Positions 2,890-64,000 of a stretch of DNA of 64,000 nucleotides are shown here, in pieces (within the stretch, counting starts at the first letter, position 1; each line of letters starts with the position of its first letter). The notes below the pieces were generated by a model. That model was not told the origin of the DNA and did not search any database. It worked only from the letters and a program-made list of their open reading frames with translations. The stretch is from positions 2,728,001-2,792,000 of the forward strand of contig OY979719.1 of assembly GCA_963855995.1 (NCBI GenBank), given 5' to 3'. This stretch comes from Muricea muricata (taxonomy: Eukaryota > Cnidaria > Anthozoa > Malacalcyonacea > Plexauridae). A program made the position numbers and the translations under genes.

Positions 2890-3269
2890 CATTGATCTGT
2901 ATAATACTGGATCACGCATACAGTGGCATCAAGTGAAGCCAGCAGAAATGACGAATTTGGAGTACCAAGATGGCGAACAATCAGCATTTTCAATAAATAA
3001 ATAAACTTCCTTATTTTAAGGAAATTTACGGAAATTGAAAACGCTGCTTAAAAGCTAACTCTTACACCCGCAATTAAATGTATACATGTGACCGAAATAT
3101 TAATAATGTGATTGCTAGATAGACTTATTCACGACGTTCAAAAGCACCCATATTAGTCTAATTTGACTGAAAAAAATGGCAAAAGCTAAGCTTAGTTTTT
3201 TGTATCACCGAGGATGGTTAGTGGCAAAGAGAGTCGAAAGCTACATTACTGAGGGTTTTAGGGAAAAAG

Positions 3270-4515
3270 TTTTGACAAAAATTTTTTTTCAAAATTTTTT
3301 CCCAAATTTTTTTTCAAAATTTTTTCTCAAAATTTTTTCGTGAATTTTTTTCAAAATTTTTTCCAAAATTTTTTGTCAAATTTTTTTCCCAATTTTTTTT
3401 TCAAAATTTTTTCCAAAATTTTTTCCCAAATTTTTTGGAAAATTTTGAAAAAAATTTTGAAAAAAAAATTGAGAAAAAAAAATAGAAAAAAAATTTCAAA
3501 AAAATTCCGGAAAGTATTTTGAGAAAAAATTTTGGAAAAATTTTTGAAAAAAAAATTTTTTTTTCAAACTTTTTTCCTAAATTTTTTTTTAAAATTTTTT
3601 CCCAAATTTTTTGTTCAAAATTTTCCCCAATATTTTTGTCAATTTTTTTCAAAATTTTTCCCCAAATTTTTTTTCAAAATTTTTTCTTAAATTTTTTGTT
3701 CAAAATTTTCCCCAATATTTTTGTCAATTTTTTTCAAAATTTGCCAAATTTTTTTTCAAAATTTTTTCCCAATTTTTTTTTCAAAATTTTTTCCTAAATT
3801 TTTTTTTTAAAATTCCCAAATTTTTTGTTCAAAATTTTCCCCAATATTTTTGTCAATTTTTTTCAAAATTTTTTCCCCAAATTTTTGTCAAAATTTTTTC
3901 ATAAATTTTTTTTCAAAACTTTTTCTCAAATTTTTTTTCAAAATTTTTCCCAATATTTTTGTCAATTTTTTTTCAAGATTTTTTCCAAAATTTTTCCTGA
4001 ATTTTTCTCCAGTTTTGTTGGTCGAGGGTTTTTTGTCAAATTTTTTCCCCATTTTTTTTCATATTTCCCATATTGGGAAAAATTTTGAAAAAAAGTTTAG
4101 AAAAAAATTTTGAAAAAAAATGAAGAAAAAATTTGACAAAAAATTTTTGACCGAAAAATTTGAGAAAAATTTGGGGAAAAAATTTGAAAAAAATTTTGGA
4201 AAAAATCTTCAAAAAAAATTTGGGAAAAAATTTGAAAAAAATTTTGGAAAAAATTTTGGAAAAAATCTTGAAAAAAAATTTGGGAAAAAATATTGGGAAA
4301 AATTTTGAAAAAAAATTTGGGAAAAAATATTGGGAAAAATTTTGAAAAAAAAAATGGGTAAAAATATTGGGAAAATTTTGAAAAAAAATATTGGGAAAAA
4401 ATTTTGAAAAAAAAATAGGTAAAAATTTTGGGAAAAAAATTTCAAAAAAATTTGGGAAAAAATTTTGGCAAAAAATTTGGGAAAAAAATTTTGAAAAAAA
4501 AATTTGGGAAAAAAT
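3270..4515. repeat. Opposed A/T-tract repeats (T-rich then A-rich), hairpin-forming
   Basis: From about 3270 to 4070 the plus strand is mostly irregular units like CAAAATTTTTTCCC, with a short A-rich interruption near 3440-3550; from about 4070 to 4515 it switches to the reverse complement, units like GGGAAAAAATTTTG. The block as a whole is an imperfect long inverted repeat. It is open in several frames and would read as runs of Phe, Lys, Asn, Ile and Gln, but this comes from the repeat and not from selection on a protein. Confidence 0.8.
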
Positions 4516-4785
4516 TGTGCCCCTGACGATTGTGAGAAAATCATCAAAAGTTTGAATTTCAGGGGAGAATTGATTAGTATGCCCAGCCATCTTGACCACC
4601 AGACAACAATAAACAATCCCTGGCGAAAATTTGTTCATGAAGTCATGAACTTTCGTGGTCTGTTCATTTTCATGAACAGACCATGAAAGTTCATGACTTC
4701 ATGAACAAATTTTAGCCAGGGATTGCTTATCGTTGTCTGGTGGTCAAGATGGCTGGGCATACTAATCAATTCTCTCCAAAAACTT
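4516..4785. repeat. Palindromic spacer between A/T-tract blocks
   Basis: A more complex stretch whose two halves are reverse complements around about 4672: the half reading GAATTGATTAGTATGCCCAG near 4567 returns inverted near 4750-4775, and the centre is built on CATGAACAGACCATG. A second copy of the left half lies at about 5395-5560. The repeated block suggests internal duplication of the fold-back element. Confidence 0.7.
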
Positions 4786-5390
4786 TTTCCCAATATTTTT
4801 TTCAAAATTTTTTCCCAATTTTTTTTTTCAAAATTTCCCATTTTTCTTCAAAATTTTTTCCCAATATTTTTGTGAATTTTTTTTCAAGAATTTTCCAAAA
4901 TTTTTTCCCAAATTTTTTTTTTAAAATTTTTTCCCAAATTTTTTTTCAAAATTTTTTCCCCAAATTTTTGTCAAATTTTTGTCTAAATTTTTTCCCAAAT
5001 TTTTTTTCAAAACTTTTTCTCAAATTTTTTTTCAAAATTTTTCCCAATATTTTCGTCAATTTTTTTTCAAGATTTTTTCCCAATTTTTTTCCAATTTTAT
5101 TGGTCAAAAATTTTTTGTCAAATTTTTTCCCCATTTTTTTTTCCAAAAAAAAATTGGGAAAAATTTTGAAAAAAATTTTGGAAAAAATTTTGGAAAAAAT
5201 CTTGAAAAAAAATTTGGGAAAAAATATTGGGAAAAATTTTGAAAAAAAATTTGGGAAAAAATTTTGAAAAAAAAATAGGAAAAAATTTTGGGAAAAAAAT
5301 TTCAAAAAAATTTGGGAAAAAATTTTGAAAAAAAATAGGAAAAAAATTTTGGGAAAAAAATTTTGAAAAAAAAATTTGGGAAAAAATTGT
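4786..5390. repeat. Second opposed A/T-tract inverted repeat
   Basis: It repeats the pattern of 3270-4515 on a smaller scale: T-rich CAAAATTTTTTCCC-type units to about 5145, then A-rich GGGAAAAAATTTTG-type units to about 5390. It looks like a duplicated and partly deleted copy of the first block. Confidence 0.75.
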
Positions 5391-5968
5391 GCCCTCCTCT
5401 GTGCCTTTACGATTGTGAGAAAATCATTAAAAGTTTGAATTTCAGGGGAGAATTGATTAGTATGCCCAGCCATCTTGACCGCCAGACAACGATAAGCAAT
5501 CCCTTGCGAAAATTTGCTCATGAAGTCATGAACTTTCATGGTCTGTTCATTTTCATGAACGTTCATTCAAGTGGGGCCATTCAACATGGCCGCACAAGTC
5601 TAAAAATGTGACGTACTTCTGGCTTCAAAACCTAACAATCCAACAATAGATGCGCTATCGAGCTTTATGCTTTTGACTAACTACGATTTTTTAAACAGCC
5701 AGCCTGAAACATAATATCTTCAGAACACAGGACATAATTGGTGACGAAACACAGGTGAGGAAAGGTGTTCTGCGCATTTCCGAACGCGCATGACCACAAT
5801 GCACTGCGGTAAACATGGTTTGAGATAAATTCTCCCCTGTATACACAAATTAGGTCTGCTGCTTCGCTCGCTCGCTTCAGGCTCGCTCGCTCCGCAGCAA
5901 TGATGCGTGATCCAGTATTATACAGATCAGTGCTGCCGACCCGACAAAAACTCCCGGTTTTCTTATCT

Positions 5969-16165: not shown

Positions 16166-16172
16166 CTTTTCG
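16166..16172 (+). repeat. Left target-site duplication of the giant fold-back element
   Basis: CTTTTCG here is repeated in the same orientation at 27615-27621, immediately outside the two ends of the palindrome. Confidence 0.75.
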
Positions 16173-19045
16173 GAGGTATTATTATTTCAGACAAAATTTG
16201 TTCAAAAACCAACAACTGAAACCAAGGCATGGTTACTAAGCTAAACGCGATCAAAGGTACTGGTAAGTAATTTCAACATGGCTTCCTTTTCTAACAAGAG
16301 TCAAAATATGAATATGGATGATATTGGATGATATGGATTAGATATGGATGAGCTTTCTAATAATGAGGGCTTGAATATTCACGAATCCACGGAAAGTAGC
16401 GAGGTAAATAGAATTGGTAATATTTTTCCTGAGTACAGACTGTACGACTACGTGGTTTGTTTATGAATTTCACCAGTTTAATATACGTACGGATATTGGA
16501 TGATATTAATAATATGAAAATGGTGCGCGGAGTCGCAGAGATACCAGATTTATTTCGAGTGTTGAACATGATATCCTACGAGTGAGTGCAGCGAACGAGG
16601 GCATTTCCTAGCACCATGTATTTTTCTGTTTATTATATAAACTACAGTGTTTTCTACTAATATAAAACATCCAGAAGCTATTAGTTGATTGTTTGAAAAG
16701 CGATAATTTTCACATGTCATGATCTCACATTTGAGAGTATCAATTTTATCAGTGCTGGAAATCTTTATGAAGCACTGTACTTTAAATAATAAGTATTGAT
16801 AGACTATAGTCTGTCTAGTCACGAAGGTTAGTAATTCATTGCATGTAGTGATCATGTGATGGCAAACAGGCAGGTAAAAATTCGAGATTGTATTCAACCT
16901 ACAATTATAGTCCTATATAAAACCCACAAGTAAGTCTCTTTTGACTTTGTCTTGTAATCAGCCGGTATGGTCTGGAAAGTGTGGCAATTACACACTCAAG
17001 AATTTTTGTTGTGTTCAGGTTTGCATACTTGGCTTAATACTGAATATGGTGAATATGGCCAGTGCTAGGTATCTAACATGCACACTGAAGTGCATTTGAC
17101 ATAGGTTTGCGCGCTGTACATTTGAAATTTTTGAAACTCGAGATCTTGTTAAAAACAGCCATACTTTCCAGTCTAGGTCATCAGTCTACAGTATCTGACT
17201 GCCTATCAAAGTGGATTGTTTGTACTGCACAGCCAAGATACATTATTGGGCTGCAATTTTGATGTCTTCTAATAAATTTTCTATTAAATGTCTTCTATTA
17301 TATTGCCTATATTTTAGTCCCTATATATTTTCTATTAAATATTTTAAATCTCAGCACATAATCTTTCCAGTCTGGACTGCAGGTTCATAAACACTAAAAT
17401 TTTCGAATAATCAACATTATTGATTTCTTGTGGGTACAAGACTGTTGTTTGAAACATTTGAAAATGTGAAAATAATGCAACCGACTGTGGCTAGTTTGAA
17501 AATAAGCTAGTTAAGTGGACTATTTTTTATCACTCCCTGTATACTATCCTTCTGCCCATGCCATCTTTTTGCAACATTCAGTAACTGTCTTATTAAGGTT
17601 AAGTTAACAGTATCTAGCCATCCACAGAAATTTAATGTTTATTTAATCAGAAATCTTTAGTAATGTTTGGTCACTATATACTTTGGAACTTCAGTATTAG
17701 TAGAGAATAGCCAACAATAAGTCTCACTCATGTTGGGACCTATATGTTTTTGTCTCCTTGGCAGTGACCATGCCGTCATTCTAGCAGCTAAACCTGGGGC
17801 ATAATAAACATTTGAAAAACTTCATGAGATTTAGTCTGTGCAGAGATTGTGCAGAATGGAAATATATGAGCATGCACCCCCCCCCCCCCAATTATCAGTA
17901 ATTAATATTTGATAATTATTTTTAGTCTCTGAGGCTGAGAAACAAATTCACACAATTGCCTGCATGGTAAATATTGTTTGGCTGGACCAACATTTCAGTC
18001 CTGTAAAGTATGCATTCACCAAATGATCTGGCCTGCACAGTCATATTTGGACAATTCAGTCATCCACGGAAATGCACAATATAAATTCCAACAAAACGTC
18101 TGCAAGCTATTTTAGGAAAAGAAAGGAACTTTAAAAAGACACACAATGGATGTGCTGTAAAGCCATAGATTAAGGATAAACAGATGTGCAACTGGATACG
18201 TGCCAGTCTCTCATGTTCTATGCTAATATACGACGTCACATCCACGAACCATGAAAGTGTTCATAAAATCGTCAATTAATTGACATTTCTCTTTCTAATT
18301 CGTTATAAACTTTGGCTTGTGTACTCGCCAGTATATTGCGCATATGCATTGCTGCTATGCTATGACCTGGTTTTTGTTGGCAGCATGAGCATCAGTAAAA
18401 TAAAAAGGGATAACGTTTCCAGTGAATTTTGCGAAAAAATGCTGAAAGAATTTTCTTTAAAATTTGTTTTTGTTCCGACGCACATTTCAGTACTGTTGAT
18501 TTCTTTGTTTTTTAACCGTGTGCTTATGTTCATCTTGCTAGTCAAAATCAGGTCTAATTAAATGTTCATTTATCTTATACTAAATATACCGTAATTAGTC
18601 AAATGAATACGGTTTTTGTAAATAATAGAATTTAATAAATAATTTCTTCTTATCTTGTGTTCAGATTTATTTATAAATCAAAATACAATATAATAATCTT
18701 ATTACGAAAAACAGTGCATGTACCATATATTTTTGCTAACCTCATACATATATTATTCACTTTTTAACACACCTTTGTCTCGCTACTAGCCTAGTACTCA
18801 CTCTTAAGCGCTTAAGATAATATTCTCCCTGTCCAAAATGCATGGTTACATAAATGTAGTTGTATACAAGACTGAATTTTGGGAGAGGTGCGCACCTCCC
18901 CTGGGAATAGGAGAGGTGCACACCTCCCCAAAAAAAACCCCCACATTCCCTTACAATTTCTCCAAAATCTGGCCTTGGTTATATGTTAACTCGGTTTGTG
19001 CATGCATGCCACTTGATTTCTTATCTTTACTTCAAATGGTCATTG
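16173..19045. repeat. Left arm of the giant fold-back element
   Basis: Unique-sequence arm matching the inverse of 24750-27614 with scattered substitutions and small indels. A 115-codon open frame (16550-16897, minus) and a 70-codon one (16357-16569, minus) recur in the other arm with a few amino-acid changes, but they match no family I know. Near 16278-16407 an ATG-opened stretch ending at a donor-like GAGGTAAAT looks like a first exon, but the stop TGA occurs in both arms. Confidence 0.8.
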
Positions 19046-22000
19046 TGACCATGCGTGTGTCTTTAGTGTTGGGAAATGTTATAAGGATTGAAATTATTGT
19101 TTTCAGAGATTTTACGACTTTGGTTAAATAGGAACAAATCTTGTCATTATTTAACCAAGCCTATTATTACACGAATTATTATGTATTTAGTGTTTGAAAA
19201 TGTTATTATACAGATTGAAATTATTGTTTTCAGAGATTTTATGAGTTTGGTTAAACATGATCAAATTTTGTCAATATTTAACCAAGCCTATTATTGCACG
19301 AATTATTGTGTCTTTAGTGTTTAAAAATGTTATTATAAGGACTGCTGTATTGTTTTCAGAGATTTTATGACTTTGGTTAAACATGATCAAATTTTGTCAA
19401 TATTTAACCAAGCCTATTATTACACGAATTATTGTACCTTTAGTGTTTGAAAATGTTATTATAAGGATTGAAATTATTGTTTTCAGAGATTTTATGACTT
19501 TGGTTAAATAGGTACAAATTTTGTCATTGTTTAACCAAGCCCATTATTACACGAATTATTGTGTCTTTAGTGTTGGAAAATGTTATTATAAGGATTGAAG
19601 TTACTGTTTTCAGAGATTTTATAACTTTGGTTAAATATGTACAAATTTTGTCATTGTTTAACCAAGCCCATTATTACACGAATTATTGTGTCTTTAATGT
19701 TTAAAAATGTTATTATAAGGATTAAAGTTACTGTTTTCAGAGATTTTATAACTTTGGTTAAATATGCACAAATTTTGTCATTGTTTAACCAAGCCCATTA
19801 TTACACAAATTATTTTGTCTTTAATATTTAATTAATTAAAAATGTTATTATAAGGATTGAAGTTACTGTTTTCAGAGATTTTATAACTTTGGTTAAATAT
19901 GTACAAATTTTGTCATTGTTTAACCAAGCCCATTATTACACGAATTATTGTGTCTTTAGTGTTGGAAAATGTTATTATAAGGATTGAAGTTACTGTTTTC
20001 AGAGATTTTATAACTTTGGTTAAATATGTACAAATTTTGTCATTGTTTAACGAAGCCCATTATTACACGAATTATTGTGTCTTTAGTGTTGGAAAATGTT
20101 GTTGTAAGGGCAGCTGTTAGTGCTGTATTGTTTTCAGAGATTTTATGAGTTTGGTTAAACATGATCAAATTTTGTCATTATTTAACCAAGCCTATTATTA
20201 CACGAATTATTGTGTCTTTAATGTTTAAAAATGTTATTATAAGGATTGAAGTTACTGTTTTCAGAGATTTTATAACTTTGGTTAAATATATACAAATTTT
20301 GTCATTGTTTAACCAAGCCCATTATTACACGAATTATTGTGTCTTTAGTGTTGGAAAATGTTATTATAAGGATTGAAGTTACTGTTTTCAGAGATTTTAT
20401 AACTTTGGTTAAATATGTACAAATTTTGTCATTGTTTACTCAAGCCCATTATTACACGAATTATTGTGTCTTTAATGTTTAAAAATGTTATTATAAGGCT
20501 TGAAGTTACTGTTTTCAGAGATTTTATAACTTTGGTTAAATATGTACAAATTTTGTCATTGTTTAACCAAGCCCATTATTACACGAATTATTTTGTCTTT
20601 AATGTTTAAAAATGTTATTATAAGGATTGAAGTTACTGTTTTCAGAGATTTTATAACTTTGGTTAAATATGTACAAATTTTGTCATTGTTTAACCAAGCC
20701 CATTATTACACGAATTATTGTGTCTTTAATGTTTAAAAATGTTATTATAAGGATTGAAGTTACTGTTATCAGAGATTTTATAACTTTGGTTAAATATGTA
20801 CAAATTTTGTCATTGTTTAACCAAGCCCATTATTACACGAATTATTTTGTCTTTAATGTTTAAAAATGTTATTATAAGGATTGAAGTTACTGTTTTCAGA
20901 GATTTTATAACTTTGGTTAAATATATACAAATTTTGTCATTGTTTAACCAAGCCCATTATTACACGAATTATTGTGTCTTTAATGTTTAAAAATGTTATT
21001 ATAAGGATTGAAGTTACTGTTTTCAGAGATTTTATAATTTTGGTTAAATATATACAAATTTTGTCATTGTTTAACCAAGCCCATTATTACACGAATTATT
21101 GTGTCTTTAATGTTTAAAAATGTTATTATAAGGATTGAAGTTACTGTTTTCAGAGATTTTATAACTTTGGTTAAATATGTACAAATTTTGTCATTGTTTA
21201 ACCAAGCCCATTATTACACGAATTATTGTGTCTTTAATGTTTAAAAATGTTATTATAAGGATTGAAGTTACTGTTATCAGAGATTTTATAACTTTGGTTA
21301 AATATGTACAAATTTTGTCATTGTTTAACCAAGCCCATTATTACACGAATTATTTTGTCTTTAATGTTTAAAAATGTTATTATAAGGATTGAAGTTACTG
21401 TTTTCAGAGATTTTATAACTTTGGTTAAATATATACAAATTTTGTCATTGTTTAACCAAGCCCATTATTACACGAATTATTGTGTCTTTAATGTTTAAAA
21501 ATGTTATTATAAGGATTGAAGTTACTGTTTTCAGAGATTTTATAACTTTGGTTAAATATGTACAAATTTTGTCATTGTTTACCCAAGCCCATTATTACAC
21601 GAATTATTGTGTCTTTAGTGTTGGAAAATGTTATTATAAGGATTGAAGTTACTGTTTTCAGAGATTTTATAACTTTGGTTAAATATGTACAAATTTTGTC
21701 ATTGTTTAACCAAGCCCATTATTACACGAATTATTGTGTCTTTAGTGTTGGAAAATGTTATTACAAGGATTGAAGTTACTGTTTTCAGAGATTTTATAAC
21801 TTTGGTTAAATATGTACAAATTTTGTCATTGTTTAACCAAGCCCATTATTACACGAATTATTTTGTCTTTAATGTTTAAAAATGTTATTATAAAGATTGA
21901 AGTTACTGTTTTCAGATATTTTACAACTTTGGTTAAATATGTACTATATTTTGTCATTGTTTAACGAAGCCTATTATTACGCGAATTATTGTGTCTTTAG

Positions 22001-22206
22001 TGTTGAAAAATGTTGTTGTAAGGGTTGCTGTTAGTGCTGTATTGTTTTCAGAGATTTTATGAGTTTGGTTAAACATGATCAAATTTTTTCAATATTTAAC
22101 CAAGCCTATTATTACATGAATTATTGTGTCTTTAGCGTTTAAAAATATTATTATAAGGACTGCTGTATTGTTTTCAGAGATTTTATGACTTTGGTTAAAC
22201 ATGATC
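19046..22206 (+). repeat. Tandem array, about 127-bp unit, forward orientation (about 25 copies)
   Basis: Each unit contains TTTAACCAAGCC, ATTACACGAATTATTGTG, AATGTTATTATAAGGATTGA, TTTTCAGAGATTTTATAACT and TTGGTTAAATATG. A 9-bp inverted repeat TTGGTTAAA / TTTAACCAA, about 20 bp apart, gives each unit a possible small hairpin. A variant with TTATCAGAG recurs 508 bp apart (about 20765 and 21273), so four-unit blocks have been copied together. Because 127 is not a multiple of 3, overlapping 64-codon frames arise repeatedly; these are not genes. Confidence 0.9.
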
Positions 22207-24749
22207 AATAATTCGTGTGATAATGGGCTTGGTTAAACAATGACAAAATTTGTACATATTTAACCAAAGTCATAAAATCTCTGAAAACAATAATTTCAAT
22301 CCTCATAATAACATTTTCCAACACTAAAGACACAATAATTCGTGTAATAATGGGCTTGGTTAAACAATGACAAAATTTGTACATATTTAACCAAAGTCAT
22401 AAAATCTCTGAAAACAATAATTTCAATCCTCATAATAACATTTTCAAACACTAAATACATAATAATTCGTGTAATAATATAGGCTTGGTTAAACAATGAC
22501 AAAATTTGTTCCTATTTAACCAAACTAATAAAATCTCTGAAAACAATACAGCAATCCTTATAATAACACTTTTAAACACTAAAGACACAATAATTCGTGT
22601 AATAATAGGCTTGGTTAAATAATCACAAAATTTGTTCCTATTTAACCAAACTCATAAAATCTCTGAAAGCAATACAGCAGTCCTTATAATAACATTTTTA
22701 AACACTAAAGACACAATAATTCGTGCAATAATAGGCTTGGTTAAATAATGACAAAATTTGATCATGTTTAACCAAACTCATAAAATCTCTGAAAACAATA
22801 CCGCAGCCTTTATAATAACATTTTCCAACGGTAAAGACACAATAATTCGTGTAATAATAGGCTTGGTTAAGTATCACTAAATTTGTTCCTATTTAACCAA
22901 ACTCATAAAATCTCTGAAAACAATACAGCAGTCCTTATAATAACATTTTTAAACACTAAAGACACAATAATTCGTGCAATAATAGGCTTGGTTAAATAAT
23001 GACAAAATTTGATCATGTTTAACCAAACTCATAAAATCTCTGAAAACAATACCGCAGCCTTTATAATAACATTTTCCAACGGTAAAGACACAATAATTCG
23101 TGTAATAATAGGCTTGGTTAAGTATCACTAAATTTGTTCCTATTTAACCAAACTCATAAAATCTCTGAAAACAATAATTTCAATTCTTATAATAACATTT
23201 TCCAACACTAAAGACACAATAATTCGTGTAATAATAGGCTTGGTTAAACAATGACAAAATTTGTACCTATTTAACCCAAAGTAATAAAATCTCTGAAAAC
23301 AATATATAATTTCAATCCTTATAATAACATTTTCCAACACTAAAGACACAATAATTCGTGTAATAATAGGCTTGGTTAAATAATGACAAAATTTGTACAT
23401 ATTTAACCAAAGTCATAAAATCTCTGGGAACAATAATTTCAATCCTTATAATAACATTTTCCAACACTAAAGACACAATAATTCGTGTAATAATAGGCTT
23501 GGTTAAACCATGACAAAATTTGTTCCTATTTAACCAAACTAATAAAATCTCTGAAAACAATACAGCAGCCGTTATAATAACATTTTCCAACGGTAAAGAC
23601 ACAATAATTCGTGTAATAATAGGCTTGGTTAAGTAATCACAAAAATTGTTCGTATTCAACCAAAGTCATAAATAAAATCTCTGAAAACAATAATTTCAAT
23701 CCTTATAATAACATTTTCAAACACTAAAGACACAATAATTCGTGTAATAATAGGCTTGGTTAAATAATGACAAAATTTGTTCCTATTTAACCAAACTAAT
23801 AAAATCTCTGAAAACAATACAGCAATCCTTATAATAACACTTTTAAACACTAAAGACACAATAATTCGTGTAATAATAGGCTTGGTTAAATAATCACAAA
23901 ATTTGTTCCTATTTAACCAAACTCATAAAATCTCTGAAAGCAATACAGCAGTCCTTATAATAACATTTTTAAACACTAAAGACACAATAATTCGTGCAAT
24001 AATAGGCTTGGTTAAATAATGACAAAATTTGATCATGTTTAACCAAACTCATAAAATCTCTGAAAACAATACCGCAGCCTTTATAATAACATTTTCCAAC
24101 GGTAAAGACACAATAATTCGTGTAATAATAGGCTTGGTTAAGTATCACTAAATTTGTTCCTATTTAACCAAACTCATAAAATCTCTGAAAACAATAATTT
24201 CAATCCTTATAATAACATTTTTAAACACTAAAGACACAATAATTCGTGCAATAATAGGCTTGGTTAAATAATGACAAAATTTGATCATGTTTAACCAAAC
24301 TCATAAAATCTCTGAAAACAATACAGCAGCCGTTATAATAACATTTTCCAACGGTAAAGACACAATGATTCGTGTAATAATAGGCTTGGTTAAGTAATCA
24401 CAAAAATTGTTCGTATTCAACCAAAGTCATAAATAAAATCTCTGAAAACAATAATTTCAATCCTTATAATAACATTTTTAAACACTAAAGACACAATAAT
24501 TCGTGTAATAATAGGCTTGGTTAAATAATGACAAAATTTGTTCCTATTTAACCAAAGTCGTAAAATCTCTGAAAACAATAATTTCAATCCTTATAATAAC
24601 ATTTTCCAACACTGAAGATAGAATAATTCGTGTAATAATGGGCTTGGTTAAACAATGTCAAAATTTATGCCTATTTAACCAAAGTCATAAAATCTCTGAA
24701 AACAATAATTTCAATCCTTATAATAACATTTTCCAACACTAAAGACACA
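22207..24749 (-). repeat. Tandem array, about 127-bp unit, reverse orientation (about 20 copies)
   Basis: The same unit as in 19046-22206 but inverted. Orientation flips abruptly near 22206, where a truncated forward unit ending CATGATCA abuts ATAATTCGTG of a reversed one. Subtypes with a GCAATAATAGG or CAACGGTAAAG variant recur about 251 bp apart (near 22710, 22965) and again near 23990, showing two-unit blocks here in place of four-unit ones. Confidence 0.9.
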
Positions 24750-27614
24750 TGCATGGCCACAATGACCATTTGAACTTTGAAGTAAAGATAAGAAATCAAG
24801 TGGCATGCATGCAAAAACCGAGTTAACATATAACCAAGGCCAGATTTTGGAGAAATTGTAAGGGATGTGGGGGGTTTTTTGGGGAAGTGTGCACCTCTCC
24901 TATTCCCAGGGAAGGCGCGCACCTCTCCCAAAATTCGGTCTTGTATACAACTACATTTATGTAACCATGCATTTTGGAGAGGGAGAATATTATCTTAAGC
25001 GCTTAAGAGTGAGTACTAGGCTAGTAGCGAGACAAAGGTATGTTGAAAATTGAATAATATATGTATGAGGTTAGCAAAAGTATATGGTATATGCACTCTT
25101 TTTCGTAATAAGATGATTATATTGTATTTTGATTTATAAATAAATCTGAACACAAGATAAGAAGAAATTATTTATTAAATTCTATTATTTACAAAAACCG
25201 CATTCGTTTGACTAATTACGGTATATTTAGTAGAAGATAAATGAACATTTAATTAGACCTGATTTTGACTAGCAAGATGAACATAAGCACACGGTTAAAA
25301 AACAAAGAAATCAACAGCACCGAAATGTGCGTCGGAACAAAAACAAATTTTAAAGAAAATTCTTTCAGCATTTTTTCGCAAAATTCACTGGAAACGTTAT
25401 CCCTTTTTATTTTACTGATGCTCATGCTGCCAACAAAAACCAGGTCATATGCGCAGTATACTGGCGAGTACACAAGCCAAAGTTTATAACGAATTAGAAA
25501 GAGAAATGTCAATTAATTGACGATTTTATGAACACTTTCATGGTTCGTGGATATGACGTCGTATATTAGCATAGAACATGAGAGACTGGCACATATCCAG
25601 TTGCACATCTGTTTATCCTTAATCTATGGCTTTACAGCACATCCATTGTGTGTCTTTTTAAAGTTCCTTTCTTTTCCTAAAACAGCTTCCAGACGTTTTG
25701 TTGGAATTTATGTTGTGCATTTTCGTGGATGACTGAATTGTCCAAATATGACTGTGCAGGCCAGATCATTTGGTGAATGCATACTTTACAGGACTGAAAT
25801 GTTGGTCCAGCCAAACAATATTTACCATGCAGGCAATTGTGTGAATTTGTTTCTCAGCCTCAGAGACTAAAAATAATTATCAAATATTAATTACTGATGA
25901 TTGGGGGGGGGGGGTGCATGCTCATATATTTCCATTCTGCACAATCTCTGCACAGACTAAATCTCATGAAGTTTTTCAAACGTTTTTATGCCCCAGGTTT
26001 AGCTGCTAGAATGATGGCATTGTCACAGCCAAGGAGACAAAAACATATAGGTCCCAACATGAGTGAGACTTATTGTTGGCTATTCTCTACTAATACTGAA
26101 GTTCCAAAGTATATAGTGACCAAACATTACTAAAGATTTCTGATTAAATAAACATTAAATTTCTGTGGATGGCTAGATACTGTTAACTTAACCTTAATAA
26201 GACAGTTACTGAATGTTGCAAAAAGATGGCATGGGCAGAAGGATAGTATACAGGGAGTGATAAAAAATAGTCCACTTAACTAGCTTATTTTCAAACTAGC
26301 CACAGTCGGTTGCATTATTTTCACATTTTCAAATGTTTCAAACAACAGTCTTGTACCCACAAGAAATCAATAATGTTGATTGTTCGAAAATTTTCATGTT
26401 TATGAACCTGCAGTCCCGACTGGAAAGATGATGTGCTGAGATTTAAAATATTTAATAGAAAATATATAGGGACTAAAATATAGGCAATTTAATAGAAGAC
26501 ATTTAATAGAAAATTTATTAGAAGACATCAAAATTGCAGTCCAATACTGTATCTTGGCTGTGCAGTACAAACAATCCACTTTGATAGGCAGTCAGATACT
26601 GTAGACTGATGACCTAGACTGGAAAGTATGGCTGTTTTTAACAAGATATCGGGTTTCAAAAATTTCAAATGTACAGTGTGCAAACATGTGTCAAATGCAC
26701 TTCAGTGTGCATGTTAGATACCTAGCACTGGCCATATTCACCATATTCAGTATTAAGCCAAGTATGCAAACCTGAACACAACAAAAACTCTTGAGTGGCT
26801 AATTGCCATACTTTCCAGACCATACCGGCTGATTACAAAATAAAGTCAAAAGAGACTTACTTGTGGGTTTTATATAGGATTATAATTGTAGGTTGAATAC
26901 AATCTCGAATTTTTACCTGCCTGTTTGCCATCACATGATCACTACATGCAATGAATTACTAAACTTTGTGACTAGACAGACTATAGTCTATCAATACTTA
27001 TTATTTAAAGTACAGTGCTTCATAAAGATTTCCAGCACTGATAAAATTGATAATCTCAAATGTGAGATCATGACATGTGAAAATTATCGCTTTTCAAACA
27101 ATCAACTAATAGCTTCTGGATGTTTTATATTAGTAGAAAACACTGTAGTTTATATAATAAACAGAAAAATACATGGTGCTAGGAAATGCCCTCGTTCGCT
27201 GCACTCGCTCTTAGGATATCATGTTCAACACTCGAAATAAATCTGGTATCTCTGCGACTCCGCGCACCATTTTCATATTATTAATATCATCCAATATCCG
27301 TACGTATATTAAACTGGTGAAATTCATAAACAAACCACGTAGTCGTACAGTCTGTACTCAGGAAAAATATTACCAATTCTATTTACCTCGCTACTTTCCG
27401 TCGATTCATGAATATTCAAGCCCTCATTATTAGAAAGCTCATCCATATCTAATCCATATCATCCAATATCATCCATATTCATATTTTGACTCTTGTTAGA
27501 AAAGGAAGCCATGTTGAAATTACTTACCAGTACCTTTGATCGCGTTTAGCTTAGTAACCATGCCTTGGTTTCAGTTGTTGGTTTTTGAACAAATTTTGTC
27601 TGAAATAATACCTG
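24750..27614. repeat. Right arm of the giant fold-back element
   Basis: Inverted copy of the left arm. It carries the mirrored 115-codon frame at 26893-27240 and the 70-codon frame at 27221-27433 on the plus strand. The right target-site copy CTTTTCG follows at 27615-27621. Confidence 0.8.
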
Positions 27615-27621
27615 CTTTTCG

Positions 27622-28024: not shown

Positions 28025-29495
28025 ATGATCCTAAGAACAACTTTGAGACAGCCATTTCGATCAGTGGTAACTACCAGTATTGCAAATATTAGAAGCTATC
28101 TATCAATATTTAGAAGCATGGACACAGCTATTCTGTCAAATAGCGTCGAAAGATATTTAAAAAATACTGAAAGAAGTTGCCAGTCGGCTGTCAATGGCAT
28201 GGAGCTTGGCGAGATAGTTAAACGTCTTGAAAACTATGCTCCACTATCATTGGCCGAAAGCTGGGACAATGTTGGGCTTCTTGTCGAACCATCAACCGCA
28301 AGTCATTTAGTTAAATCAATCCTGTTAACCAATGACCTAACAGAAGCGGTCATGGATGAAGCTATTAAAAAAGATGCAAATATGATTTTGTCCTATCATC
28401 CTCCAATATTTACACCTTTAAAAACATTGACTAGAAGCACCTGGAAAGAAAGAGTTGTTTTGAAGGCTGTTGAGAATAAGATAGCCATATATTCTCCACA
28501 TACAGCATTTGATTCTGTCAAGGATGGAGTAAATGACTGGTTGGCCAGTGGTCTAGGGAAAGGGACAGTTAGACCATTGCAGAACACTTTTGTTGAAAGG
28601 ACATTAGGAGTGCACAAAGTAAACATTGTTGTTTCCAAAGGCAAAGATGATCAGAGCAAAGTGGATGAGTTGGTATCCAAAGTAAAAGAAATTGATGAGA
28701 ATATTGTCATCCATGTTGGAGAGAATTTGTAAGTATAACAATACATAGATTTTGGTAAGTAACAGCATAGAAATTTATATCAAGAGTTGCAATTGATATA
28801 TTCAAATGATTAAATGTTGTTTGTTCTTTCTGATGTAGATGTGATATGGGTGTAAGTTTAAAATGCAATGTCGGCTCTTTGATGCAAGTTATGAAGTTGT
28901 TAAAAAATGAGTTTCCAGAAATGTTAGAGAGCACTGATGTATTTAGTTTGGCAAAGGTAATGTTGCACATGAAAGATGTTTGCTTTGAGCAATCTGTTGC
29001 ATTAGCCGTATAATAAGCCCTTTTTTTATCCTCGCTTGCAAAACAAAGATATTTTATGTTCAAGATTGTTACTCTAATGTTGTCCAGGTGCCCTTGGAAG
29101 ACACTGGCATTGGCCGTTTGTGTGTGTTGGAAGAAGCAGTGTCTGTTGAAACCCTCGTCCAAAGAGTAAAAGATCATTTAAAGTTGGTTAATATTCGTTT
29201 CGCATTGGCAAGTCAAAGATCACAAACTGACCTTATCACTACAGTTGCCATCTGTGCAGGCTCAGGTGGGAGCGTTGTGAAGGGTGTGAAAGCTGACCTG
29301 TATTTGACAGGTGAAATGTCACACCATGATGTGTTAGATGCTGTCTCGAATGGCATTCATGTTGTCTTAGGGGAACATAGTAACACTGAACGTGGATTCT
29401 TTAAAAGGTTTTCTAGACTTTTGTATGATATGCTTGATGGACAAGTAACAGTCCATCAATCAGTTGTTGATGCAGATCCCATTACCATAGCTTAG
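28025..29495 (+). CDS. NIF3L1: NIF3-like protein 1
   Basis: Three exons, 28025-28728, 28839-28956 and 29088-29495, encode 409 residues (human 377). NIF3 proteins are conserved dinuclear-metal proteins; animal forms occur in cytosol and mitochondria and their exact reaction is unsettled. Recognised blocks are LSLAESWDNVGLLVEPS, LTNDLTEAVMDEA, LSYHPPIF (metal-site His), IYSPHTAFDSVKDGVNDWL, then CAGSGGSVVKGVKADLYLTG, EMSHHDVLDA (metal-site His) and EHSNTERG. The N-terminus is longer than in human, rich in Arg, Ser and Thr, and could be a mitochondrial signal; Met44 (at 28109) is a possible shorter start. A poly(A) signal AATAAA lies at 29545-29550. Confidence 0.95.
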
Positions 29496-40700: not shown

Positions 40701-43700
40701 GCTCCAAAGCTGAAAGGTACGAACAGAAAACTTTAATATCATAAAATTTAATTTTAATTTATTTACCTCGAATTTTTAGCGATTATGACGTCAATTAAGA
40801 TTCTGTTCTTTTGTATTCCCTAGTTCCTCACAGTGTCTAGGCCTCACAAAAGTTGAAACTACAAACTTTGTAAGGGATCTAAACTCGCAATTATGCGCGT
40901 CCTTTCCCTCGACAAGGTAAACTTGGTAAAACGATCTAAATTACTTTTTCGTTTTTGAAGTATCATAGACGATTGTTGTTGACTTTTTGCAGATTTGTTC
41001 ACGTTGGGATGAGCAAAATGAATGACTGTGGCAATGAATCTGAGGCTGCTACAGAAAATGTAAGTGCATTCTTACTTGCTCGCATGTTCATTGCCTAGGA
41101 ACAAAGTTTGATTCATTGATTAGGATTATATGCAGTCCTCTTCACCCCACCCCACCCCACCCTCCCAATGGAGCTTTAACGTTTTAGATTAAATTTTGAA
41201 AAAATTCGAAACAGGCAAAAATATCAGCACATCTTGGAAGTGCGTCCTAAGCTTAGTAAAATTGCAAAGTTTGTTTGTGAAATGTTCTAAAATATGGAAA
41301 ATATAGCCTTGCGAATTTGGCAAATTTTGTATGAATTTGTATTACGGGTGGAAAATAATACCCAGTTGATACCCTTGGGTATATATATATATGTATTCAT
41401 GTTGTAGAAAAATCAAAACTACGCACTATCGAGGCATCTGATAAACATAAGCGACCTCTGTCAAAAACAGAAAAAAGTCTGTATGATGTGGACGAACTCA
41501 TTTCATAAATACATGAAGCAGGGACATGAATTACCTCACGGTGTAATAGCTATGGAATATGGTGGCAAGGTGACTATGATTAAACCATAAGTTTTTGTTG
41601 AATTTTTGTTTGTAGTTCTTAATGCTCATTTTGTATTTTCGGTTGCGTTTTAGTCCTCGCATGAGTTTGGTGCCTTTTGTAAATTTTGTTCTGATTCTGG
41701 GTAAGCTAGAGCATCACGAAACTTGGCAATGAGAACTTGTTTTTTGACCAGCGTACCTCGTTTCTGGATGTCTTTTGTGCTTCTTGATTTTTGTTTAATT
41801 CGAGTTTTCTGTCTGATGTTTTGAATTATAGAGTTCCGTACTATGTCTGTCCTGGAACAATGAGCTGGACTAGGTACGTTTAAGGTGATACTGTTTAAGC
41901 CGCATATGGCATAGTTTGTGTCAAAATTATGTTAAAGATATCCCATTCTTGGTGGTAGTATTTAGGTGATCTGAAAATACGGAACATCACAGACACGAGT
42001 TGTTAAACATTTTTCGTTCAAAACTATTAAATGCGTCATTAAATATAATTTACTTTGTTTTCAAATTTCTGGTGGACTTATAATTTACTTTACTAAGCAT
42101 GGTTACTTAGTTTCAACAAGTTTCATAAAGGATTTCCACTCAGTAGCTAGTTCTAGGACTTTTACTTGCTGTCAGATCCACTGGATTCTACTGTAGTTTA
42201 ACTTAATTCTTCTGCCAATGAAACTTCTACCTAATTCTTCCCAGCCTGGTCGGAGCAGATAGCATTGACTTGATTGATGATGCAGTACAAACCGCTGTTC
42301 ATTACAATGCCCTGGGTGTCCTCGTCACTGATTGGTCAGCATATGGTCACGTGTCGCCTCTGGAAGTCAGCTTGCCTGCATTTGCAGCTGGGGCAGCACT
42401 TTCATGGAATTCGAAAATAAAACAGGTTCGTCCGGTTTCGTGTACAACTAATCACTTTACTACTAATCAGTTTACCGCTAATCACTTTACTACTGATCAC
42501 TGTTCTACTCATCACTTTACTACTGATCACTGTACTACTGATCACTTTACTACTGATCACTGTACTACTAATCAGTTTACTACGAATCACTTTACTACTG
42601 ATCACTGTACTACTAATCACTTTACTACTAATCACTGTACTACTAATCACTTTACTACTAATCACTTTACTACTGATCAGTTTACTACCGATCAGTTTAC
42701 TACCGATCAGTTTACTACCGATCAGTTTACTACCGATCACTTTACTACCGATCACTTTACTACCAATCACTTTACTACCAATCACTTTACTACCAATCAC
42801 TTTACTACTAATCACTTTACTACTAATCACTTTACCACTCATCACTTTACCACTCATCACTTTACCACTCATCACTTTACCACTCATCACTTTACCACTC
42901 ATCACTTTACTACTAATCACTTTACTACTAATCACTTTACTACTAATCACTTTACTACTAATCACTTTACTACTAATCACTTTACTACTAATCACTTTAC
43001 TACTAATCACTTTACCACTCATCACTTTACCACTCATCACTTTACCACTCATCACTTTACCACTCATCACTTTACCACTCATCACTTTACCACTCATCAC
43101 TTTACTACTCATCACTTTACTACTCATCACTTTACTACTCATCACTTTACTACTCAACACTTTACTACTAATCACTTCACTACTAATCACTTCACTACTT
43201 ATCACTTTACTACTAACCACTTTACTACTGACAATATATTTCGCAAAATATTGGGGGAATTTGAGACCTCGTTATTGAGAAGGGGTCACCCCATATCTCC
43301 CTCGTCCACATTACATCCTCTTCCTTTTTCCCCTTAGGAAAGTGTCGTATCTGCTCTTGGTAACGTCTTGAGTGTGCACGTGTTTCACGACGAAGCCGGA
43401 ATAATAGGAGATGTGCTTCAAAATCTGACCCACGTTCATAGAATGCTTCAGCCTCAACCAATGCAGGCTCAACAAGCTCAACACGGTGTCTGTCCAGAAG
43501 AAACCGTTGAAGATGCAAGTCAGTTACTACAACTTTTCCTATTTCCAAACAGTACGAATCTTGACGACCTTAACACTGACAACATACAGGTATGTGCTAT
43601 ATGGATAAATTTAGCTAACGTTTGTTGATGCTTATTTCTCAGTCTCATTAATAATTAGTACTAAGAAAATCAATACCGTAGAGAACGTTTTGAAATCGGA

Positions 43701-63242: not shown

Positions 63243-64000
63243 GTAAGTTTCTGCACATGTGTATTATGCAAAGCTATACTTTGCCATGCCATGCCATGCC
63301 ATGCCATGCCATGCCATGCCATGCCATGCCATGCCATGCCATGCCATGCCATGCCATGCCATGCCATGCCATGCCATACCATATCATACCACACTACACT
63401 ACGCTACATCGTACCACATCATACTACACGACAATACACTACACATAACACAGCACAGCAGTGCACCACATCACTCTACACTGCACTGCACTGCACTGCA
63501 CTGCACTGCACTGCACTGCACTGCACTGCACTGCACTGCACTGCACTGCACTGCACTGCACTGCACTGCACTGCACTGCACTGCACTGCACTGCACTGCA
63601 CTGCACTGCACTGCACTGCACTGCACTGCACTGCACTGCACTGCACTGCACTGCACTGCACTGCACTGCACTGCACCGCACGGCACGGCACGGCACCACA
63701 CCACACCACACCACACCACACCACACCACACCACACCACACCACACCACACCACACTAGACCACACCACACTACACTAGACCACACTGCACCAGACCACC
63801 CAACTGAACACCGCCAGTGGCGGGTCCAGGGTAAGTCAAAATATATTATAGCAGCTTAATTTTAAATTCAAAATAACTCTATAACAATGTCATAGGTTAT
63901 GAATTTCAAAAGAATAAAATCTAACCAATGAAGTTGCTTTGAAGGTATTTTAAAATGTAAATATATCCTATAATGAGCTGTGGTAATTTATTTTGACTTA
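63243..64000. repeat. LYST intron with serial pentanucleotide arrays
   Basis: After the donor at 63243 come (CATGC)n at about 63282-63376, degraded CATAC/ACTAC units, (CTGCA)n at about 63476-63674, (CGGCA)n briefly, then (CCACA)n to about 63790. The reading frames through these arrays are products of the repeats. The last 180 bases show no exon. Confidence 0.88.

Follow-up and report, generated by a model that had tools for sequence, protein, structure and literature searches.

Fold-back elements that carry tandem repeats within their terminal inverted repeats (TIRs) are an established kind of transposable element, represented by FB, Galileo, Tetris and Tm1. Galileo copy 112 of Drosophila willistoni is described as a 9021-bp element whose TIRs measure 4246 and 4680 bp and which has no transposase segment; direct tandem repeats of ~140 bp lie ~1.7 kb from its ends in unequal numbers per side, and identical duplications flank it (PMC4168063). 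In the Galileo F group of D. mojavensis the TIRs, at most ~1.26 kb long, are described as containing a ~210-bp repeat two or three times. The Galileo and Tetris papers link fold-back elements with inversions of chromosomes and suggest that satellite DNA can originate from them, Tetris itself being put forward as such a source (PMC4079207). Within Tm1, a putative transposase is encoded by some members and not by others (PMC3169594). Here we analyse an 11,442-bp element of this design in the anthozoan Muricea muricata (assembly GCA_963855995.1), located in a 64,000-nucleotide stretch of contig OY979719.1 (positions 2,728,001 to 2,792,000, forward strand), hereafter the window, whose numbering is used throughout. 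Its anatomy, the duplication that flanks it, its near-identical copies elsewhere in the genome and the separate divergence of its arrays make it very probably a copy, recently inserted, of a non-autonomous fold-back DNA transposon that is present many times in the genome and is moved in trans, and we regard it as a large new example of a kind of element already known from fruit flies. The family was not recognised in the accessible parts of the open-access literature on fold-back, P-superfamily, Dada and long-TIR elements, which is no proof that it is unpublished.

Structure and coding content of the element

The element occupies positions 16173–27614, a span that the first-pass annotation had placed correctly to the base, and consists of two inverted halves, each an arm followed by a tandem array. 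This arrangement, also proposed there, appears in a self-BLAST of the window as a single inverted match in which 16180–21609 aligns to 27610–22206 at 92.45% identity over 5457 columns, placing the element beyond chance. The arms, ~2.9 kb each, are 97.75% identical, with 64 substitutions at 2845 compared sites (38 transitions and 26 transversions, of which a few, at 18943–18946, hinge on gap placement) and few gaps, the largest of 18 bp. Tandem Repeats Finder (TRF) places the left array at 19079–22203 (period 127, 24.4 copies) and the right array at 22206–24749 (period 126, 20.0 copies); the two run in opposite orientation and meet head to head at 22202–22208. The sole exact palindrome at the centre is TGATCA, and the left array ends mid-monomer, so that the centre is no mirror of a whole monomer. 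The features are:

16166–16172, no strand: left target-site duplication CTTTTCG, an exact 7-bp repeat of 27615–27621
16173–19078, + strand: left arm, the outer terminal inverted repeat, unique sequence without a recognised coding domain (97.75% identity to the right arm; Pfam scan of 14 frames of at least 56 aa)
16190–16203, + strand: subterminal motif GACAAAATTTGTTC, a candidate transposase-binding site, exact at both arm ends
19079–22208, + strand: left tandem array, ~24.4 monomers of 127 bp (TRF, 19079–22203; monomer split)
22202–22207, no strand: element centre TGATCA, junction of the arrays, an exact palindrome of three pairs
22206–24749, − strand: right tandem array, ~20 monomers of 126 bp in opposite orientation (TRF)
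24750–27614, − strand: right arm, an inverted match to the left arm
27587–27600, − strand: right-end copy of the subterminal motif GACAAAATTTGTTC, an exact match
27615–27621, no strand: right target-site duplication CTTTTCG, the 7-bp repeat

The ends, described at first as matching over 11 bp, are GAGGTATTATT on the left and, on the other strand, CAGGTATTATT on the right; they agree at 10 of 11 bases and differ at the outermost, and the left end is 3 bp longer than the right. Long inverted repeats make up most of the element, tandem repeats of 127 and 126 bp lie inside them, and a 7-bp target-site duplication, seen on the window copy alone, is accompanied by dispersed copies. The inverted structure together with CTTTTCG bears out the earlier description of the element as fold-back, intact and bordered by a target-site duplication.

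The same annotation had reported no transposase, and none of the 15 arm frames that we scanned (the full set of 14 left-arm frames that reach 56 aa, one of which starts in the flank, and the right-arm copy of the longest) matched Pfam above the cut-off. Matches below the cut-off in 5 of the 15, the best to DUF4765 (E 0.0073 in one arm copy and 0.011 in the other), were disregarded, and a spliced, decayed transposase in the arms is unlikely. A 120-aa open frame is kept in both arms (16550–16912, − strand; 26878–27240, + strand), its copies differing at three residues; it has no family match above the cut-off. At the element centre, positions 22179–22279 weakly match a mir-9-like hairpin (E 0.02; 31 bits, where the gathering score is 58.6), a match that is probably due to chance.

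Target-site duplication and transposase class

CTTTTCG at 16166–16172 and 27615–27621 abuts both ends of the element exactly, and the adjoining base mismatches on either side, giving a duplication of exactly 7 bp. When the flanks are joined they read ...ATTCACGTGCA-CTTTTCG-TGCACTCATT..., with the core GTGCA-CTTTTCG-TGCAC forming a palindromic target: all six pairs at distances 3–8 from the duplication centre are complementary, a result equalled at 74 of 63,960 window positions. A palindrome centred on the duplication would be the expected trace of a symmetric transposase complex. Galileo is described as making mostly 7-bp duplications within a 15-bp palindromic target motif, and transposon target motifs are stated in the same account always to be palindromes beyond the duplication (PMC4168063); the palindrome therefore supports transposition more than it supports any one superfamily.

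The helper of the element may belong to the P superfamily, as a Galileo-like member, an assignment that stands somewhat short of an even chance. The 7-bp duplication of this one copy agrees with the Galileo-type length and lies near the ~8 bp of P-type elements, and the palindrome beyond it is shared with P and Galileo without singling out P. Two other assignments differ from this one only in the helper. A helper from another cut-and-paste superfamily that leaves 7 bp duplicated, whether hAT or a group yet to be described, is a rather doubtful alternative; for want of a transposase, the class has to be judged mainly from the length of the duplication, and hAT duplications are given as ~8 bp, yet ~8 bp is given for P in the same account (PMC3706591). 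Dada, with duplications of 6–7 bp, is described there as being without TIRs and sitting in small RNA genes (PMC3706591). It was rejected, as the present element has kilobase inverted repeats and the window has no Rfam match at gathering scores; four weak Rfam matches below those scores (E 0.02–0.5) were taken as chance AT-rich hairpins.

The other assignment is a Mutator-type element (MULE, Mutator-like element) of the fold-back kind, like Tetris or Tm1, whose duplication is 7 bp by chance. Most fold-back elements seem to be Mutator according to the Tetris discussion (PMC4079207), and Tm1 combines composite, repeat-bearing TIRs with non-inverted terminal motifs (PMC3169594), to which the differing outermost base of the present element may be compared. 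Duplications are, however, 8–10 bp in MULEs and in Tetris and 8–10 bp (mostly 9 bp) in Tm1, and because the duplication here is exactly 7 bp, as measured on one copy, a Mutator helper is disfavoured and this assignment is unlikely. The reading of the element as a non-autonomous fold-back transposon is common to all three.

Copies in the genome and divergence of arms and arrays

The left arm's first 501 bases were searched against the genome (453,007,491 bases in 74 contigs), a check that had been proposed in the first-pass annotation. Forty matches were scored out of 1245 first-look candidates, so that copy counts are lower bounds; all 40 have E values of 4.7e-247 or better, two of them are the window element's own arms, and those other than the query itself (the left own arm) are 98–99% identical to it. 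They define at least 36 loci on 13 contigs, with pairs counted once and the window element included. Four of these loci are inverted pairs of arm ends spanning 8.5–11.4 kb, namely the window element and pairs of 8505 bp (C7), 9311 bp (C10) and 10,089 bp (C4). The high identity among the copies indicates recent spread, and their existence, on which the first-pass annotation had made its reading depend, answers the main doubt raised there. Queries of the arm and the monomer against the window with the element masked out found only short pieces in the remaining sequence, the best of 29 bp (E 0.004).

A 2.25% difference between the arms could also arise if two haplotypes, or the parts of a chimeric read, had been joined head to head in assembly, and alleles can reach this level of difference. 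Such an artefact is nevertheless highly improbable: both sides of the inverted match break off at the same point and give way to flanks that differ, a 7-bp duplication borders it, the arm end recurs at at least 35 other loci, three of them inverted pairs of other lengths, and the two arrays have diverged separately. The copies argue strongly against an artefact and for a young family, and on the same grounds of boundaries, duplication and other copies we rejected both an assembly artefact and a host segmental palindrome.

The transposon's two arrays were compared after splitting them into 25 left and 20 right monomers. Monomers of the left array had a mean identity of 0.922 and those of the right array 0.904, against 0.887 for left–right comparisons, and the within- versus between-array difference was reached in none of 5000 label shuffles (44 of the 45 monomers, the incomplete last left monomer being left out; neighbouring monomers are not independent). 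Higher identity within than between sides shows that the arrays diverged separately while the arms stayed much closer. No collinear register stands out between left and right monomers (0.875–0.899 at offsets of −6 to +6), so that an origin of the two arrays by one inverted duplication of a complete array is not supported. Differences between the arms are clustered, with a longest identical stretch of 355 bp (p 0.012) and a spacing variance at p 0.002 (20,000 shuffles); this would fit gene conversion, a hint on which we do not rely, as gap placement affects a few of the sites.

A motif shared by the ends and the arrays

The 14-base motif GACAAAATTTGTTC is set 17 bp inward from the left end and 14 bp inward from the right; no further place within the arms carries it with up to two mismatches. 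At the same stringency the arrays hold 42 copies and the rest of the window five. The terminal 60 bases share an exact match of 14 bases with the arrays, compared with at most 11 for the other 140 arm tiles; among 2624 overlapping flank tiles, 7, at three places, have an exact array match of at least 14. A pattern built from the monomer gave no matches in viral contigs.

The THAP domain of the Galileo transposase is reported to protect a site 63–80 bp from the end and to bind two further sites, which lie in the first two repeats of a set of four (PMC3688188), and the Tetris report describes a 37-bp stretch common to the outer domain and the repeats (PMC4079207). The parallel with the present motif is suggestive, and by analogy the arrays may contain transposase-binding sites in repeated form, like some of the tandem repeats of Galileo.

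Sequence surrounding the insertion

A NIF3-family gene with at least two exon-like frames lies at 28025–29495 (Pfam PF01784, E 1.9e-42). Its frame opens at 28025, ~400 bp past the right duplication, and the insertion may thus lie in the promoter region of this gene; the NIF3 and SAM-domain matches fall on split frames and, together with the 453-Mb assembly, agree with a nuclear genome of an animal. A second inverted structure, smaller and more decayed, occupies 3264–5560 and has opposed AT-rich arrays of 12- and 25-bp units, a hairpin core near 4669 and a ~400-bp block repeated directly at 4285–4677 and 5146–5560 (89.7%). It is possibly another fold-back element; its ends were looked for and not found. 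Elsewhere in the window, a 15-bp minisatellite of 52.5 copies (42443–43229, 93% matches) has long open frames in three frames, and short-unit arrays of 5-bp TGCCA, 5-bp ACACT and the 10-bp unit CACTGCACTG adjoin each other near the window end (63282–63791).

Discussion

The element is best accounted for by movement in trans. A transposase encoded elsewhere in the genome would recognise the element ends and excise the element, which would then insert into a palindromic target with a 7-bp stagger whose repair yields the 7-bp duplication. Within each half, the 127-bp arrays would expand or contract via unequal exchange or replication slippage, and the arms would be kept alike by arm-to-arm gene conversion or by recent common origin.

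Several observations count against this account or against its P-type form. No transposase is in hand, and none of the 15 arm frames holds a domain of a P-type transposase, an enzyme that carries THAP and RNase-H-like domains; the duplication and its palindromic target were measured on one copy only, and CTTTTCG does not follow the Galileo duplication consensus GTANTAC. Exact copies of GACAAAATTTGTTC number 4 of the 42 in the arrays, all in the right array, and in each array the motif is inverted with respect to the terminal copy of its own half. A gapped alignment of the arm end to the monomer is equalled by 61 of 1000 shuffles and surpassed by two other tiles of the arms.

The most interesting possibility is that the arrays serve as banks of sites for transposase binding. 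A more far-reaching version would make this a Galileo-like P-superfamily fold-back family whose inverted repeats became opposed arrays of dozens of transposase-binding units, with array size selected for mobility and the element acting as a mobile nursery from which satellite DNA is seeded; we consider this distinctly improbable as a whole. With at least 36 loci at 98–99% identity and pairs of 8.5–11.4 kb, the family allows a direct test of array-size variation among recent insertions, and the same copies allow testing of arm gene conversion and of the end motif in the tandem units. If the helper is P-type, Galileo-like architecture could extend beyond flies, where the papers describe Galileo.

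In the first-pass annotation the element was considered unusual and tied to no named family, but it is less isolated than that, since Galileo copy 112 and Tetris share its design. In the accessible parts of the related literature, a paper on coral miniature inverted-repeat transposable elements deals with unrelated TTAA elements, and a review of giant transposons merely mentions fold-back elements. Tetris, from Drosophila virilis, is likewise a fold-back element with an outer flanking domain followed by tandem repeats (~220 bp) and without conserved open frames; it differs in its TIRs of up to 1735 bp, its middle domain and its duplications of 8–10 bp, and its authors suggest Mutator (PMC4079207). 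Tm1 of root-knot nematodes resembles the present element in its composite fold-back TIRs with internal repeats and differs in its ~14-bp repeat motif, its duplications of mostly 9 bp and its classification as Mutator/Foldback (PMC3169594). Nearest in design is Galileo copy 112, with very long TIRs, little else, and tandem repeats unequal between the sides, and by analogy the present element may work like a Galileo-type fold-back. The likeness is one of design, and CTTTTCG does not fit GTANTAC. Copy 112 is described as the only Galileo copy in D. willistoni with tandem repeats in its TIRs, these being short blocks accompanied by pieces of other transposons, whereas the M. muricata element exceeds it in size and has much longer arrays, with ~44 monomers in two blocks that meet at the centre.

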